From NCBI RefSeq assembly GCF_010686685.1, contig NZ_JAAGWD010000006.1, positions 248,001-312,000 on the forward strand: a stretch of 64,000 bases of DNA, read 5' to 3'. Under the pieces are notes generated by a model, which saw nothing but the letters and a program-made list of their open reading frames with translations, was not told the DNA's origin and did not search any database. The DNA comes from Pontibacter burrus. GTDB lineage: Bacteria > Bacteroidota > Bacteroidia > Cytophagales > Hymenobacteraceae. The position numbers and the translations under genes are program-made. The number at the start of each line of letters is the position of its first letter. The first letter of the stretch is position 1. Positions 1-64,000 of the stretch are shown piece after piece.

Positions 1-213
1 GCAGGCTATAGGGAGTACCTGACCGCCGGTTTCCTGCATCAATTCCTGCGCCGTTTTCTCCAGCACATCCAGCTTCCGGCTGCAGATCACGATGTTCGCG
101 CCCAGCTCCAGAAAATATTTTACCATGGAGCGACCCAACCCGGTGCCACCGCCTGTAACTATAATTGTTTTGCCCTGCAGGGCACCTTCTTTCAGCATTG
201 GTTCTGCCTTCAT
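1..213 (-). CDS. SDR-family oxidoreductase, 2,4-dienoyl-CoA reductase-like (N-terminal fragment)
   Basis: The first 71 codons of a minus-strand gene cut by the left window edge. Residues 16-28 carry the SDR dinucleotide-binding loop TGGGTGLG after a beta strand (KTIIVTGG), and an NICSR-type stretch follows near residue 41, where SDRs select the NADP(H) phosphate. The opening LKEGALQGKTIIVTGGGTG resembles bacterial and peroxisomal 2,4-dienoyl-CoA reductases, which reduce unsaturated fatty acyl-CoA during beta-oxidation. That specific role is inferred; SDR membership is clear. The start may be the ATG ending at 213 or the in-frame Met six codons in (198). The Ser-Tyr-Lys active site lies outside the window. 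Confidence 0.8.
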   Translation of the reverse strand, partial: MKAEPMLKEGALQGKTIIVTGGGTGLGRSMVKYFLELGANIVICSRKLDVLEKTAQELMQETGGQVLPIAC

Positions 214-335
214 ACTTTTATTTGTTTAAAGTGAGATTAGCTTCGTATACTAGCTGCTACGTAGATGTTTGCTAAATATAAGCAACCATCACGGCAAATG
301 CTTATAGTTACGACAAATTAAACCTTAACCTGCTT

Positions 336-740
336 ATGAACCAGGAACAACTACAGAACGAGCTAAAGCCGCTATACGACGGCCTGCTGATGCGAAGCGA
401 AACAGACAGCCCGTTTGAGTTCTACTACTTCGAAAACACGCAGGGCCTACCCCTGAACGCCGACACCGTAGCCAAGCTGACCGGAAAGTCGAACGGAAGT
501 GAGATAAAAACGGAGCCGCTCGATCACTTTTTCCGAAACATGGTTCGCCTGTACCCTGAAGACGGCGAAGACCGCAAACAGGAAGCGGAACGGTACAAAA
601 AATTGCAGGAGAGGTTGCAGGCCCTGTTACAACATGTGCAGGTCTACAAAGCCGACGAAATAAGCATCACGGCCTACCTGCTGGGCCAGCTCCCCAACGG
701 CGACATTGCCGGTCTGCGCACGGTAGTAGTAGAAACCTGA
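336..740 (+). CDS. Nuclease A inhibitor-like protein (NuiA family)
   Basis: A 134-residue acidic cytosolic protein without signal peptide. Length and sequence (DSPFEFYYFE near residue 25; EDRKQEAERYKKLQERLQ helix near 80; SITAYLLGQLPNGDIAGLRT near 110) fit the NuiA family, whose Anabaena member is 135 residues and blocks the secreted nuclease NucA. As I recall from the NucA-NuiA structure, the C-terminal Thr of NuiA reaches the catalytic Mg2+; this protein also ends in Thr (ET-COOH). It is convergent with, and 58 bases from, a DNA/RNA non-specific nuclease gene, the expected target. The likely role is protection of the cell from its own nuclease. Family assignment is from recognition, not a search. 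Confidence 0.75.
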   Translation: MNQEQLQNELKPLYDGLLMRSETDSPFEFYYFENTQGLPLNADTVAKLTGKSNGSEIKTEPLDHFFRNMVRLYPEDGEDRKQEAERYKKLQERLQALLQHVQVYKADEISITAYLLGQLPNGDIAGLRTVVVET

Positions 741-745
741 AATAA

Positions 746-60482: not shown

Positions 60483-60486
60483 TTCC

Positions 60487-63400
60487 TTAGTTACTGTTGT
60501 TATTACCAGATCTGCCTCCACGACCTGTAGCCCGGGTAACGGCGCGTCTGGTTACACCATTGGAAGCAGGTATGGATGTTAATCTTTTAGGCTTAGCCTG
60601 GTTAAAGATGATGTTGCCATCAATAAGTTTAAAGGCCGAAATACTGATCTGTAGGTCGGCAGCAATGTCGTTCAGGTTCTGAGACGATGACGTTAGCTCC
60701 TGCATGGAAGTAGACAACTGCTTGGCTGTACTAGCTACCTGCTGCGTACCAGATGCGGTTTGTTCCGCAATGGCAACCACTTCCTCCACGTACTTCACAA
60801 CATCTCCGATAGATGATTTCTGAACTTCGGTTGCCGTTAAGATGTCCTGTGCCGTTCTCAGCGTTTCGCCGCTGGATGCCGCAATATTTTTGAAAGCGCT
60901 GGATGCTTCGAATGTTGCATTCTTTCCTTTCAATACACGACCTTCCATCGTCGAGATCGCAGTTGCTGCAGAGGCGGTATCTTTTTTCACATCCTCAACC
61001 AGCGTAGCAATTTCGTTAGCTGATTTGCGTGAACCTTCGGCCAGTTTGCGAATCTCTTCCGCTACTACGGCAAAACCGCGGCCTGCCTCACCTGCTCTTG
61101 CCGCCTCAATAGCAGCGTTCAGGGCCAGTAGGTTGGTTTGGGCAGCAATGTCCGTGATTACACCAAGTGATTTGGAGATTTCCTGCGAACGTGTGCTCAG
61201 TACTTCGATGGTTTTAGCTGTAAGAGCTGCTGAACTGGAGATTTCCTCCATGTTCTTCACCACTTCCGCTACTGTTTTCAGACCAATCTGAGAGCTTTCC
61301 TCACCAAGCAACGCTGTTTTGTTCACCACTTCGGCACGGTTGGCAGTCTCTTTCGTACCTTTCATGATCTCTTCGATCAGTTTAAAGGCCTGGTCTGTTT
61401 TTAATGCCTGGTTCTGCGCGCCTTCTGCCATTTGCTGCATGGCAAGCGCCACATCAAGCGTCACCTTGTTCATTTCCAGCCCCTTGCCAGCCATTTCTTC
61501 TGAAGAAGAGCCTACTACGAGCGAGGAATCATTGATTTCACCGAGTAAGGCATTCAGGTTATCAACGGCAAGGTTCAGTGCATTGGCCATATCCAGGATA
61601 TCACCGGCAGTCTGTGCTTCTACTTTCTGGGTTAAATCACCCTCAGAAATCGCTCGTACTACACGTGATACATCAAGCATCGGCGTTACAATAGACTCCA
61701 GCAGATCGTTAAGGGTATCTACCAGTTCTTTCCAGCTACCGCCCACACCTTGCAAGGTGGCACGTTCTGTCAGTTTACCTTCCACACCCGCAACTCTGGC
61801 CACACGCGACACTTCACCAGCCAGTCTGTTCAGGTCAATCACCATCGTGTTGATTGTTTCTGCCAGCTCGGCAACTTCTCCTCGTGCCTCCAGGCTAAGT
61901 TTCTGGGTCAGGTCACCTTTTGATACAGCTGTTACTACTTTAACTATACCACGTACCTGTGTTGTCAGGTTTGATGCCATGGTGTTTACGTTATCGGTCA
62001 GGTCTTTCCAAACACCGCCTACATTCGGTACCGATGCCTGGCCACCCAGTTTACCTTCCGTACCCACTTCGCGTGCCACACGGGTTACCTCACCAGCGAA
62101 GATGTTAAGTGAGTCCACCATTTGGTTCAGGTTCATTTTCAGGTCAGCAAGCTCACCTTTTACATCCACGGATACCTTCTGAGTCAGGTCACCTTTTGCC
62201 ACCGCAGTTGCTACGTTGGCAATGTCGCGTACCTGCAGGGTAAGGTTAGCAGCCATGGTATTTACGTGGTCCGTCAGGTCTTTCCATACTCCCGCTACGT
62301 TCGGAACTATAGCTTGCCCACCTAGCTTACCTTCCGTACCCACTTCGCGTGCCACACGGGTTACCTCGTCAGCAAAAATGTTAAGTGAGTCCACCATCTG
62401 GTTTAGGTTTTCCTTCAGGTCTGCAAGTTCGCCCCGTACATCCACGGATACTTTCTGCGCCAGATCACCTTTTGCCACCGCAGTTGCTACGTTGGCGATG
62501 TCACGCACCTGGTTAGTCAGGTTGCCTGCCATCAGGTTTACGTTCTCGGTCAGTTCTTTCCAGATACCGGCCACGTTCGGCACGTTTGCCTGACCACCTA
62601 ATATTCCTTCTGTACCTACCTCACGTGCCACACGCGATACTTCCGCGCCAAACACATTCAGTCGGTCCACCATTTCATTCAATATATCCTTCAGGTCACC
62701 AAGTTCGCCTTTCACATCCACAGATACCTTCTGCGTCAGGTCGCCTTTCGCCACAGCGGTTGCTACGTTGGCAATGTCGCGTACCTGGTTCGTCAGGTTC
62801 GAGGCCATCAGGTTCACGTTCTCCGTGAGCTCTTTCCAGGTTCCTTCTACTTTTGGCACATTCGCCTGGCCACCCAGTTTACCTTCCGTACCCACTTCGC
62901 GTGCCACACGGGTTACCTCACCGGCAAAAATGTTAAGTGAGTCCACCATCTGGTTGATGATGTCTTTCAGCTCGGCCATCTCGCCGCGTACATTCACTGT
63001 TATTTTCTGGGTCAGGTCACCTTTTGCTACCGCTGTCGATACGTTTGCAATATCACGCATCTGAGAGGTAAGGTTGCTGGCCATAGTATTCACATTGTCG
63101 GTCAGTTCTTTCCAAACGCCGCCTACATTAGGCACCTTTGCCTGGCCGCCCAGTCTTCCTTCTGTACCTACTTCGCGTGCCACACGGGTTACCTCATCAG
63201 CGAAGATGTTGAGCGAATCCACCATCTGGTTTACGTTGTCCTTCAGTTGGGCAATTTCACCGCGTGAGGCTACAGAAACTTTCTGGGTCAGGTCACCTTT
63301 CGCAACGGCTGTGGATACGTTAGCAATATCACGAACCTGCAGGGTAAGGTTGGCTGCCATGGTATTCACGTTATCGGTCAGGTCTTTCCATACACCGGCA

Positions 63401-64000
63401 ACGTTTGGTACCGATGCCTGGCCTCCCAGTTTACCTTCTGTACCTACCTCAAGTGCCACACGGGTTACCTCACCCGCAAACAGGTTCAGGTTATCGATGG
63501 TACGGTTTATAGTTTCCGCCATCACCTTAAAGTCGCCGGATACCGGAATCTGGAATGTTTCGTCCAGGTTACCGCGCGAGATATTCTTCAATACCTTACC
63601 CACTTCAAGTACCGGAACCGCGATCGAATCCACAAGACCGTTGATGTTGTTGATCATATCCTTCCAGAAACCGGAAGCGTTCTCGGCTGATGCACGGGCT
63701 TTCAGGTTACCTTCCACACCGGCTACTTTCGAGATACGGGATACTTCACCACCCACACCACCGATCATTTCCACCATCGAGTTATAGGCTTCTGCTATCT
63801 CGGCAAAAATATCGTTGTTCTGCTTGGTCAGGCGAACAGAAATATCACCCTTTTTAAAGGCATCAAGCGCGTACAGCACCCTATTCAACTGATCATTGAT
63901 GTAATCCGGGTTTTGCAGTAATTGCTCGTCAGTAACTTTACCGTTGCCATTACCATTGCCGTTCACTTTCACAGGGTCAGGAGCATTTTTAGGACCCGGC
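60487..64000 (-). CDS. Soluble poly-HAMP methyl-accepting chemotaxis protein (cut by right edge)
   Basis: At least 1,171 residues; the frame stays open to the window edge (an internal GTG at 63972 is not a credible start), so the N-terminus is missing. No membrane segment is visible. About nine HAMP-type KGDL motifs, including six near-identical 92-residue units (VGTEGx[28 protein letters not shown]), resemble those of fungal Nik1 kinases. The signalling domain has the receptor hairpin tip [20 protein letters not shown] followed by [20 protein letters not shown]. The C-terminus is Arg/Gly/Asn-rich without a NWETF-like CheR-docking pentapeptide. First gene of the chemosensory operon in this window. 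Confidence 0.93.
61920..63480 (-). repeat. Six tandem 276-base (92-codon) HAMP repeats
   Basis: The segment coding GGQA with its flanks recurs at 62036, 62312, 62588 and onward every 276 bases to about 63416. Units are similar at DNA level, so unequal recombination or assembly collapse is possible. Confidence 0.85.

Follow-up and report, generated by a model that had tools for sequence, protein, structure and literature searches.

A genome-wide DNA word with lineage-specific dialects in Pontibacter, a candidate self-recognition sequence

The 64-kb stretch of the Pontibacter burrus genome analyzed here (contig NZ_JAAGWD010000006.1, positions 248,001 to 312,000; hereafter the window) is dotted with a short DNA word, AACTATAG, whose extended form is the 10-mer AACTATAGTT. 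Our results show that this word is iterated throughout the genome, on both strands and in genes as well as gaps, and that it has related spellings in most of the genus. The 10-mer occurs 1300 times in 4,314,171 bases, while the same letters in reversed order, used as a control, occur 9 times. The first-pass annotation of the window had proposed a highly iterated word from local counts of CTATAG, and the genome count bears this out, being far higher than expected and not limited to the window. We suggest, with a probability of roughly 0.42, that the word serves self-recognition and has spread through biased uptake or exchange of DNA, like the DNA uptake sequences (DUS) and uptake signal sequences (USS) of other bacteria.

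Within the window, CTATAG was found 110 times, compared with Markov expectations of 11.1 (order 2) and 35.7 (order 3), the latter being inflated by the word itself. For AACTATAGTT, 31 copies were seen, while 0.07 (order 2) or 0.70 (order 3) were expected. The earlier local counts of CTATAG proved exact, with 12 copies at 6-5672 and 14 at 25896-26567. CTATAG is thus over-represented as claimed, but it is not the repeat unit as such; the unit is AACTATA followed at position 8 by G, A, C or T in decreasing order of preference, after which TT is preferred but optional. In a sample of 464 kb of the same genome (the window, C26:1-240000, C1:1-100000 and C2:1-60000), the flanks beyond the 10-mer carry at most 0.04 bits per position, save 0.09 at position -1, and the widest gap between words is 6.3 kb. 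A longer conserved element around the word, a trait of repetitive extragenic palindromes (REP) and their associated tyrosine transposases (RAYT), was not found in this sample; transposase families were not searched. The copies of AACTATAGTT in the window, together with a hairpin and a cluster, are as follows.

3143..3152, no strand, AACTATAGTT
3980..3989, no strand, AACTATAGTT
5209..5218, no strand, AACTATAGTT
5670..5679, no strand, AACTATAGTT
11565..11574, no strand, AACTATAGTT
15535..15544, no strand, AACTATAGTT
19663..19672, no strand, AACTATAGTT
19972..20005, no strand, hairpin with CTATAG at 19976 and 19996 in 14-bp inverted arms ACAGCTATAGTTTG / CAAACTATAGCTGT, 6-base loop
23028..23037, no strand, AACTATAGTT
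24068..24077, no strand, AACTATAGTT
25896..26572, no strand, cluster of 14 CTATAG, 11 of them inside AACTATAG on either strand
26000..26009, no strand, AACTATAGTT
26289..26298, no strand, AACTATAGTT
30309..30318, no strand, AACTATAGTT
30391..30400, no strand, AACTATAGTT
30456..30465, no strand, AACTATAGTT
31736..31745, no strand, AACTATAGTT
31780..31789, no strand, AACTATAGTT
35606..35615, no strand, AACTATAGTT
38566..38575, no strand, AACTATAGTT
39554..39563, no strand, AACTATAGTT
40371..40380, no strand, AACTATAGTT
42498..42507, no strand, AACTATAGTT, whose TAG terminates the RmuC reading frame (41168-42505)
43138..43147, no strand, AACTATAGTT
45144..45153, no strand, AACTATAGTT
50210..50219, no strand, AACTATAGTT
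50230..50239, no strand, AACTATAGTT
52843..52852, no strand, AACTATAGTT
52986..52995, no strand, AACTATAGTT
53147..53156, no strand, AACTATAGTT
58543..58552, no strand, AACTATAGTT
59310..59319, no strand, AACTATAGTT
59518..59527, no strand, AACTATAGTT

The hairpin agrees in position and structure with the earlier description. No open reading frame of at least 100 amino acids is listed between 25796 and 26628, around the cluster. A dispersed, REP-like repeat of about 32 bp at 35545-35576 is separate from the word; it has matches in at least 12 of 16 Pontibacter genomes, several of them as close opposite-strand pairs.

Iterated words of the shape A[AG][CG]TATA[ACG] were found in 39 of 50 Pontibacter genomes, with little or none in the other 11, and they fall into lineage dialects, AACTATAG, AAGTATAA or AGGTATAG, the latter two having been identified in other species by de novo 8-mer statistics on orthologous stretches. 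Perfect palindromy is confined to one dialect, AAGTATAA and AGGTATAG being non-palindromic. AACTATAGTT itself is abundant in eight of the 50 genomes, P. burrus included (1300, 1477, 1164, 1124, 1087, 330, 232, and 104 copies). Its counts are 0 to 28 in the other 42 and 0 to 8 in 150 genomes of five other genera. Relative to its reversed control, ARGTATAR is enriched 7.8- to 28.5-fold in 35 of the 50 genomes, 4.1- to 4.5-fold in four AACTATAG genomes and 1.2- to 5.2-fold in the remaining 11, where the upper part of the range may represent decaying relics. The word-poor genomes are larger (n = 10, median 5.8 Mb vs 4.6 Mb in the other 40; p = 1.3e-5, uncorrected for kinship and with rounded sizes).

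The dialects were also compared at 55 RmuC loci of 12-21 kb, 39 from Pontibacter and 16 from other genera; those nearest to the locus of the window are all from Pontibacter (Hymenobacteraceae). The word AACTATAG leads at three loci, AAGTATAA or its overlaps at 14 and AGGTATAG at 12, while one locus each shows a mixture of AACTATAA and AAGTATAG, a GGTATAA-type word and AAGTATAC. No word of the Pontibacter shape was found at any of the 16 loci of other genera or at seven Pontibacter loci (P. harenae, P. silvestris, P. ummariensis, P. diazotrophicus, P. pamirensis, P. beigongshangensis, and P. qinzhouensis). On the RmuC protein tree the dialects stand in blocks: one starred group of seven unites the AACTATAG species with two mixed-dialect species, and another, of 12, consists of the AGGTATAG species. 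These dialect labels rest on Pontibacter loci of 13-21 kb, which show AACTATAG, AAGTATAA, AGGTATAG, GGGTATAA, AAGTATAC or nothing, and are weak for P. litorisediminis, P. mangrovi and uncultured 4-1420. Since P. ruber (G105), the deepest Pontibacter branch, has the dialect AAGTATAA, and since presence or absence of the word needs at least four changes among 42 Pontibacter rows (35 with, seven without), AAGTATAA is probably the ancestral spelling on this one gene tree with open forks, and the word has probably been lost more than once, although change counts cannot separate gain from loss. In P. roseus the local word also forms a tandem array, (CTATAC)15, beside dispersed single copies (L139, 5668-5759). 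The wordless P. beigongshangensis locus (L101) holds CCTCCGGA 13 times in 21 kb, compared with 0.7 expected, possibly another, unrelated word.

One-letter variants show an almost strict TATA core, a fairly strict position 3 and graded tolerance at positions 1 and 2. Within the core, tolerance is chiefly for G in place of A at position 7, which is 6.4- and 7.4-fold in two dialects; T is the least favored letter at position 8. Palindromic completion is favored, with TT following AACTATAG in 36% of cases, compared with a background of 6.4%, and with analogous completions in 24% and 15% in the other two dialects, palindromes being counted on both strands. The pooled dialect sets used for variants, completion, polarity and pairs count some overlapping kilobases twice (L089/L029, L109/L044, and L116/L033; for variants and completion also L110/L040 and L114/L037).

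Conservation of sites was assessed in relatives designated G119 (P. sp. Tf4), G099 (P. populi), G018 (P. fetidus), G043 (P. vulgaris), G033 (like G038, an uncultured Pontibacter), G085 and G058; P. oryzae is G049 and P. lucknowensis G091. Gene boundaries came from a custom-written caller, which gave 301 genes and 74% coding sequence over the 464 kb. In gapless coding alignments, words are identical more often than permuted controls in G119 (64% vs 20%), G085 (54% vs 18%), G099 (45% vs 16%) and the mixed-dialect G058 (23% vs 18%). For all aligned sites of the window only, conservation of words and controls is 46% and 20% in G119, 28% and 16% in G018, and 16% and 13% in G033, while the AAGTATAA-dialect G043 keeps none of 13 words, compared with 11% of controls. 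Position 3 was then considered at those AACTATAV sites of P. burrus at which the relative keeps positions 1-2 and 4-7 and has no T at position 8. In G058, position 3 is C at 158, G at 47, T at 6 and A at 1 of these sites, compared with C 1630, T 332, A 82 and G 34 in control AAC words; the corresponding counts in G119, which shares the dialect of P. burrus, are C 338, G 1, A 2 and T 2, compared with C 2330, A 53, T 271 and G 39 in controls, so that 5 of 343 word sites and 363 of 2693 controls have changed. Sites thus change dialect in place through an otherwise rare C-G transversion, while the common transition is almost absent. Origin by mutation alone does not explain this pattern. Switching between C and G with few changes to A or T implies a sequence-specific reader, which would conserve the word.

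Among the options raised by the first-pass annotation, an uptake or recombination signal appears to fit these data best. In our proposal, AACTATAG(TT) is the form that a self-recognition word takes in this lineage, with copies throughout the genome and a putative sequence-specific DNA-binding protein as its reader. DNA bearing the word would be taken up or recombined more readily by the cells, copies born by chance would thereby be copied into the population, and the word would drift with its reader into dialects. Two features of DUS and USS are present in Pontibacter: a short word far in excess of expectation, with copy numbers in the hundreds to thousands, and dialects with a conserved core that follow the phylogeny. 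As to rarity in foreign DNA, a further trait of DUS and USS, the data are mixed. The observed-to-expected ratio (O/E) of the word in eight strain-specific islands of 4-19 kb, foreign only in that they do not align to the compared stretches of relatives, is 7.9, 2.3, 3.1 and 2.5 by species, compared with 24.3, 28.2, 21.6 and 7.1 in the rest, and hence lower in all four species, but the 13 single genes considered below show little deficit.

In the Neisseriaceae, Frye et al. (2013, PMC3630211) describe eight DUS dialects around an invariant CTG core; one genome uses two of them, and some relatives have none. The Pontibacter word resembles these in its length of about 10 bp, its thousands of copies, its related spellings around a fixed core, a two-spelling genome and wordless relatives; unlike them, it occurs in another phylum, has unrelated letters, is palindromic in one dialect and comes with no detected pilus ATPase. 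It is likewise similar to the USS of the Pasteurellaceae, which are iterated, come in dialects and reportedly co-evolve with a candidate receptor, but that proposed receptor, ComN, is a type IV minor pilin (PMC12616744), and no pilus ATPase was detected in Pontibacter. As neither type IV pili nor type II secretion is represented by an ATPase in the genus, we suspect that the reader belongs to a pilus-free uptake route of the Bacteroidota like that mapped genetically in Riemerella (outer-membrane protein, surface protein, three-HHH protein, and ComEC, with HHH for helix-hairpin-helix). Transformation of Riemerella needs ComEC, DprA, ComF, RecA, a three-HHH protein, a DUF1343 protein, and outer-membrane and predicted surface proteins, among the genes being the pair RA0C_RS04915/04920 (DUF5689) (PMC8459023); with these non-pilus genes, a different route exists in the Bacteroidota. 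Of its components, ComEC and a three-HHH protein are present here. ComEC, the inner-membrane channel, was found in 50 of 50 genomes, word-poor ones included, and HHH_3 in all 31 genomes of a panel of word-bearing and word-poor species. Three repeats are present in the HHH copy examined in P. burrus (L061, 12207-13145), which scores above the cut-off of TIGR00426 (ComEA helix-hairpin-helix region) and below those of the other ComEA models.

Several observations speak against uptake or exchange. PF00437, the type IV pilus/type II secretion ATPase, was found in none of the 50 Pontibacter genomes, compared with 13 of 14 in the control rings (pilins were not searched), which makes receptors of the pilin kind unlikely. 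ComP, the DUS receptor, is a pilin. The missing ATPase is an obstacle because the receptors of DUS and USS are pilins, and without such ATPases the reader would be new. No reader gene was found, homologues of Riemerella RA0C_RS04915/04920 not having been searched. The competence genes tested, ComEC and HHH, occur equally in word-poor genomes, so that their loss there is ruled out and neither follows the distribution of the word; DprA and ComF lay outside the search. In the word-bearing genomes G046 and G089, the ComEC matches contain an in-frame stop (G046:C76:160505-161305 and G089:C1:2771217-2771876); in the likewise word-bearing G119 the match (G119:C23:51507-52310) lies in a shorter frame (561) than usual. 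Close inverted pairs are common among DUS and USS. Here, pairs within 80 bp exceed chance (255 vs 136), but their orientation is near random (72 convergent, 51 divergent, and 132 tandem), and inverted pairs are not favored over general clustering. Thirteen single genes without a counterpart in three relatives hold 0.89 AACTATAG per kb, compared with 0.98 in shared genes. Finally, coding word sites with at least three differences are in excess in the comparison with G058 (0.35 vs 0.22 in controls), unlike the prediction of simple stepwise gain.

Much of the same pattern would also be predicted if the words were sites of a cytoplasmic DNA-binding protein, such as one that organizes the chromosome, with selection maintaining them and their spelling drifting as the specificity of the protein does. 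The words are dense, lie on both strands without polarity and are conserved with a graded, binding-site-like profile, and the palindromic completion favored in three dialects is dimer-like. However, if the function were a core one, it would be odd for scattered sister species to have the word weakly or not at all, the spacing is clustered rather than regular (variance/mean 1.36-1.56 in 4-kb bins), and the low O/E of the islands would require slow accumulation. Taken together, we regard this explanation as unlikely, but as one to be taken seriously.

The words may also be compared with Chi, a recombination word that would be read by the AddAB nuclease and would spare self DNA. Chi words are short, over-represented and different between taxa, as is the word studied here. 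AddA/RecB-like and AddB-like genes lie in the window (12676-16128 and 17030-19933), with NCBIfam matches below cut-offs, AddB is present in 50 of 50 genomes, and word-poor foreign DNA would be explained as well. Chi, however, is strand-biased and read in one orientation, while no polarity was seen over 320 kb each, neither for AAGTATAV (325:303 in G058) nor for AACTATAR without a following TT (290:276 in G085 and 329:278 in G119), and the word is palindromic in one dialect. Loss of AddB in word-poor genomes is ruled out, as these genomes carry it too, without stops. No title on a Bacteroidota Chi word appeared in a search of the open-licence PubMed Central literature. Hence, a Chi-like role seems improbable. 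A second, distant AddB-like gene (32-33% identity) was noted at G123:C13:33592-36444 and G046:C54:158637-161486.

The first-pass annotation likened the word to HIP1, the highly iterated palindrome (HIP) of cyanobacteria. As a description this holds, since an over-represented palindromic word is present in one dialect, and like HIP1 and other HIPs (PMC4390886) the word is short, iterated, palindromic in its own dialect and subject to turnover between relatives. According to the same paper (Elhai, 2015), cyanobacterial genomes with highly over-represented words all have one or more putative methyltransferases that could act on these words. In the Elhai model, a cognate methyltransferase together with methylation-directed mismatch repair creates such a word or maintains it. 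The P. burrus genome does match PF00145, PF02086 and PF02384, although a motif screen for methyltransferases among the called genes of the 464-kb sample gave no match. Unlike HIPs, the word is AT-rich, two of its three main dialects are non-palindromic, and none of four methyltransferase families tracks it (PF01555 in 30/50, PF00145 in 23/50, PF02086 in 4/16, and PF02384 in 15/16 genomes), PF01555 and PF00145 occurring in word-bearing and word-poor genomes alike. Five word-bearing genomes (G064, G079, G083, G089, and G049) lack PF01555, PF00145 and PF02086, and G079, in which the word stands at 14.8 times its control, lacks PF02384 too, other families not having been searched; the latter genome argues against membership in the HIP class.

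The gain of words was examined at 284 P. burrus sites with alignments to three or more relatives. At 103 of them the word is missing from all aligned relatives; 60 of these are gapped in some relative and were left out as uninformative either way. With unresolved letters ignored, 25 of the 43 gapless sites are one letter away from the majority sequence, nine are two and five are three letters away, and four show no difference because the relatives are split. Gapless gains are thus mostly one or two substitutions (34/43), and the 11 clean single-step gains available are scattered point changes at positions 1, 4, 6, 7 and 8 of six change types, without a single repair signature. At coding sites with at least three differences, the changes show a three-base periodicity in G119 and G085 that is less clear in G058. 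We therefore consider an origin through a methyltransferase quite improbable.

A transcription signal, such as a terminator or promoter element, is suggested by the 2.6-fold higher density of words between convergent genes (11.0 per kb) than in tandem gaps (4.2 per kb; 4.4 in divergent gaps) and by the two-copy hairpin at 19972-20005, which comes after the AddB gene. Nevertheless, O/E is the same in coding DNA (339 seen, 7.1 expected; 47.6) and in intergenic DNA, which includes missed genes (406 seen, 8.5 expected; 48.0). Words gather where disturbance is least, that is, where constraint is low. Close pairs being near random in orientation, terminator pairs give no orientation signal, and a role in transcription is very improbable.

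Least credible of all is selfish or insertional spread, in which a mobile element or hairpin would insert the word whole: clusters such as 25896-26572, the gaps at 60 of the 103 sites and the somewhat greater gapped fraction of intergenic words (0.25-0.33 vs 0.18-0.21 in controls, missed genes included) speak for it, but nothing is shared beyond AACTATAGTT, coding words are seldom gapped (0.04-0.08 vs 0.01-0.04) and clean gains are point substitutions. The earlier idea of a selfish insertion product is thus not supported, and as to whole motifs coming and going at once in aligned orthologues, the gapless gains speak against it while the gapped sites are silent. Whole-motif insertion is not the main route in genes, although it may play a part in gaps.

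Dispersed words were also found in other Hymenobacteraceae. In the g2 genome G001, AAACGCTA was seen 43 times (3.9 expected). The g5 genomes, presumably Hymenobacter, show CCCTACCC in G114 (32 vs 2.5), CTACCCCC in G153 (34 vs 2.4), and GTGGCCTA / CTAGGCCA in G171 (33 vs 2.0 and 31 vs 2.1). The g4 genome G004 shows ACCTAGGG (15 vs 0.4, in 20 kb only). The words of all five genomes contain TA. No comparably strong dispersed word was found in samples of 20-190 kb each from Adhaeribacter, Rufibacter, Botryobacter, g6, G007, G176, G118, G181, G167 and G010; lesser excesses of GTGCTGGA in pooled Rufibacter (51 vs 7.9) and CTACACCA in G167 (13 vs 1.0) may reflect coding bias and were set aside. The Rufibacter 8-mers GGTACAAC / GGAACAAC were rejected as a dispersed word, their enrichment being false and due to a 9-bp tandem array directly 3' of rmuC in two Rufibacter (L131, 11497-11908; L128, 11601-11952). 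In G114, a CCCTA tandem array (L071, from 9320) lies beside dispersed single copies. As dialects of the family we propose A[AG][CG]TATA[ACG] for Pontibacter, CCCTACCC, CTACCCC or TGGCCTAG for g5, ACCTAGG for g4 and AAACGCTAT for g2. That the Hymenobacteraceae share pilus-free, sequence-selective uptake or exchange, with a TA-containing word split into genus and species dialects and a candidate reader in the outer membrane or at the surface, is a tentative and rather doubtful extension.

Few groups are known to have genome-wide recognition words, whose evolution is difficult to observe as it happens, and we know of no uptake-sequence system outside the type IV pilus. As the first-pass annotation had supposed, the Pontibacter word appears to be undescribed, with no paper on it among the matches listed in open-licence PubMed Central. 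Within the single genus Pontibacter, a probable ancestral word can be compared with two derived dialects, with mixed intermediates and with word-poor species, in genomes that are partly syntenic, which makes the co-evolution of word and reader directly testable. The word could point to the missing outer-membrane DNA receptor in a phylum in which some of the mapped transformation genes lack known counterparts and, if our proposal is true, it would reveal a sequence-selective uptake system outside the type IV pilus world.

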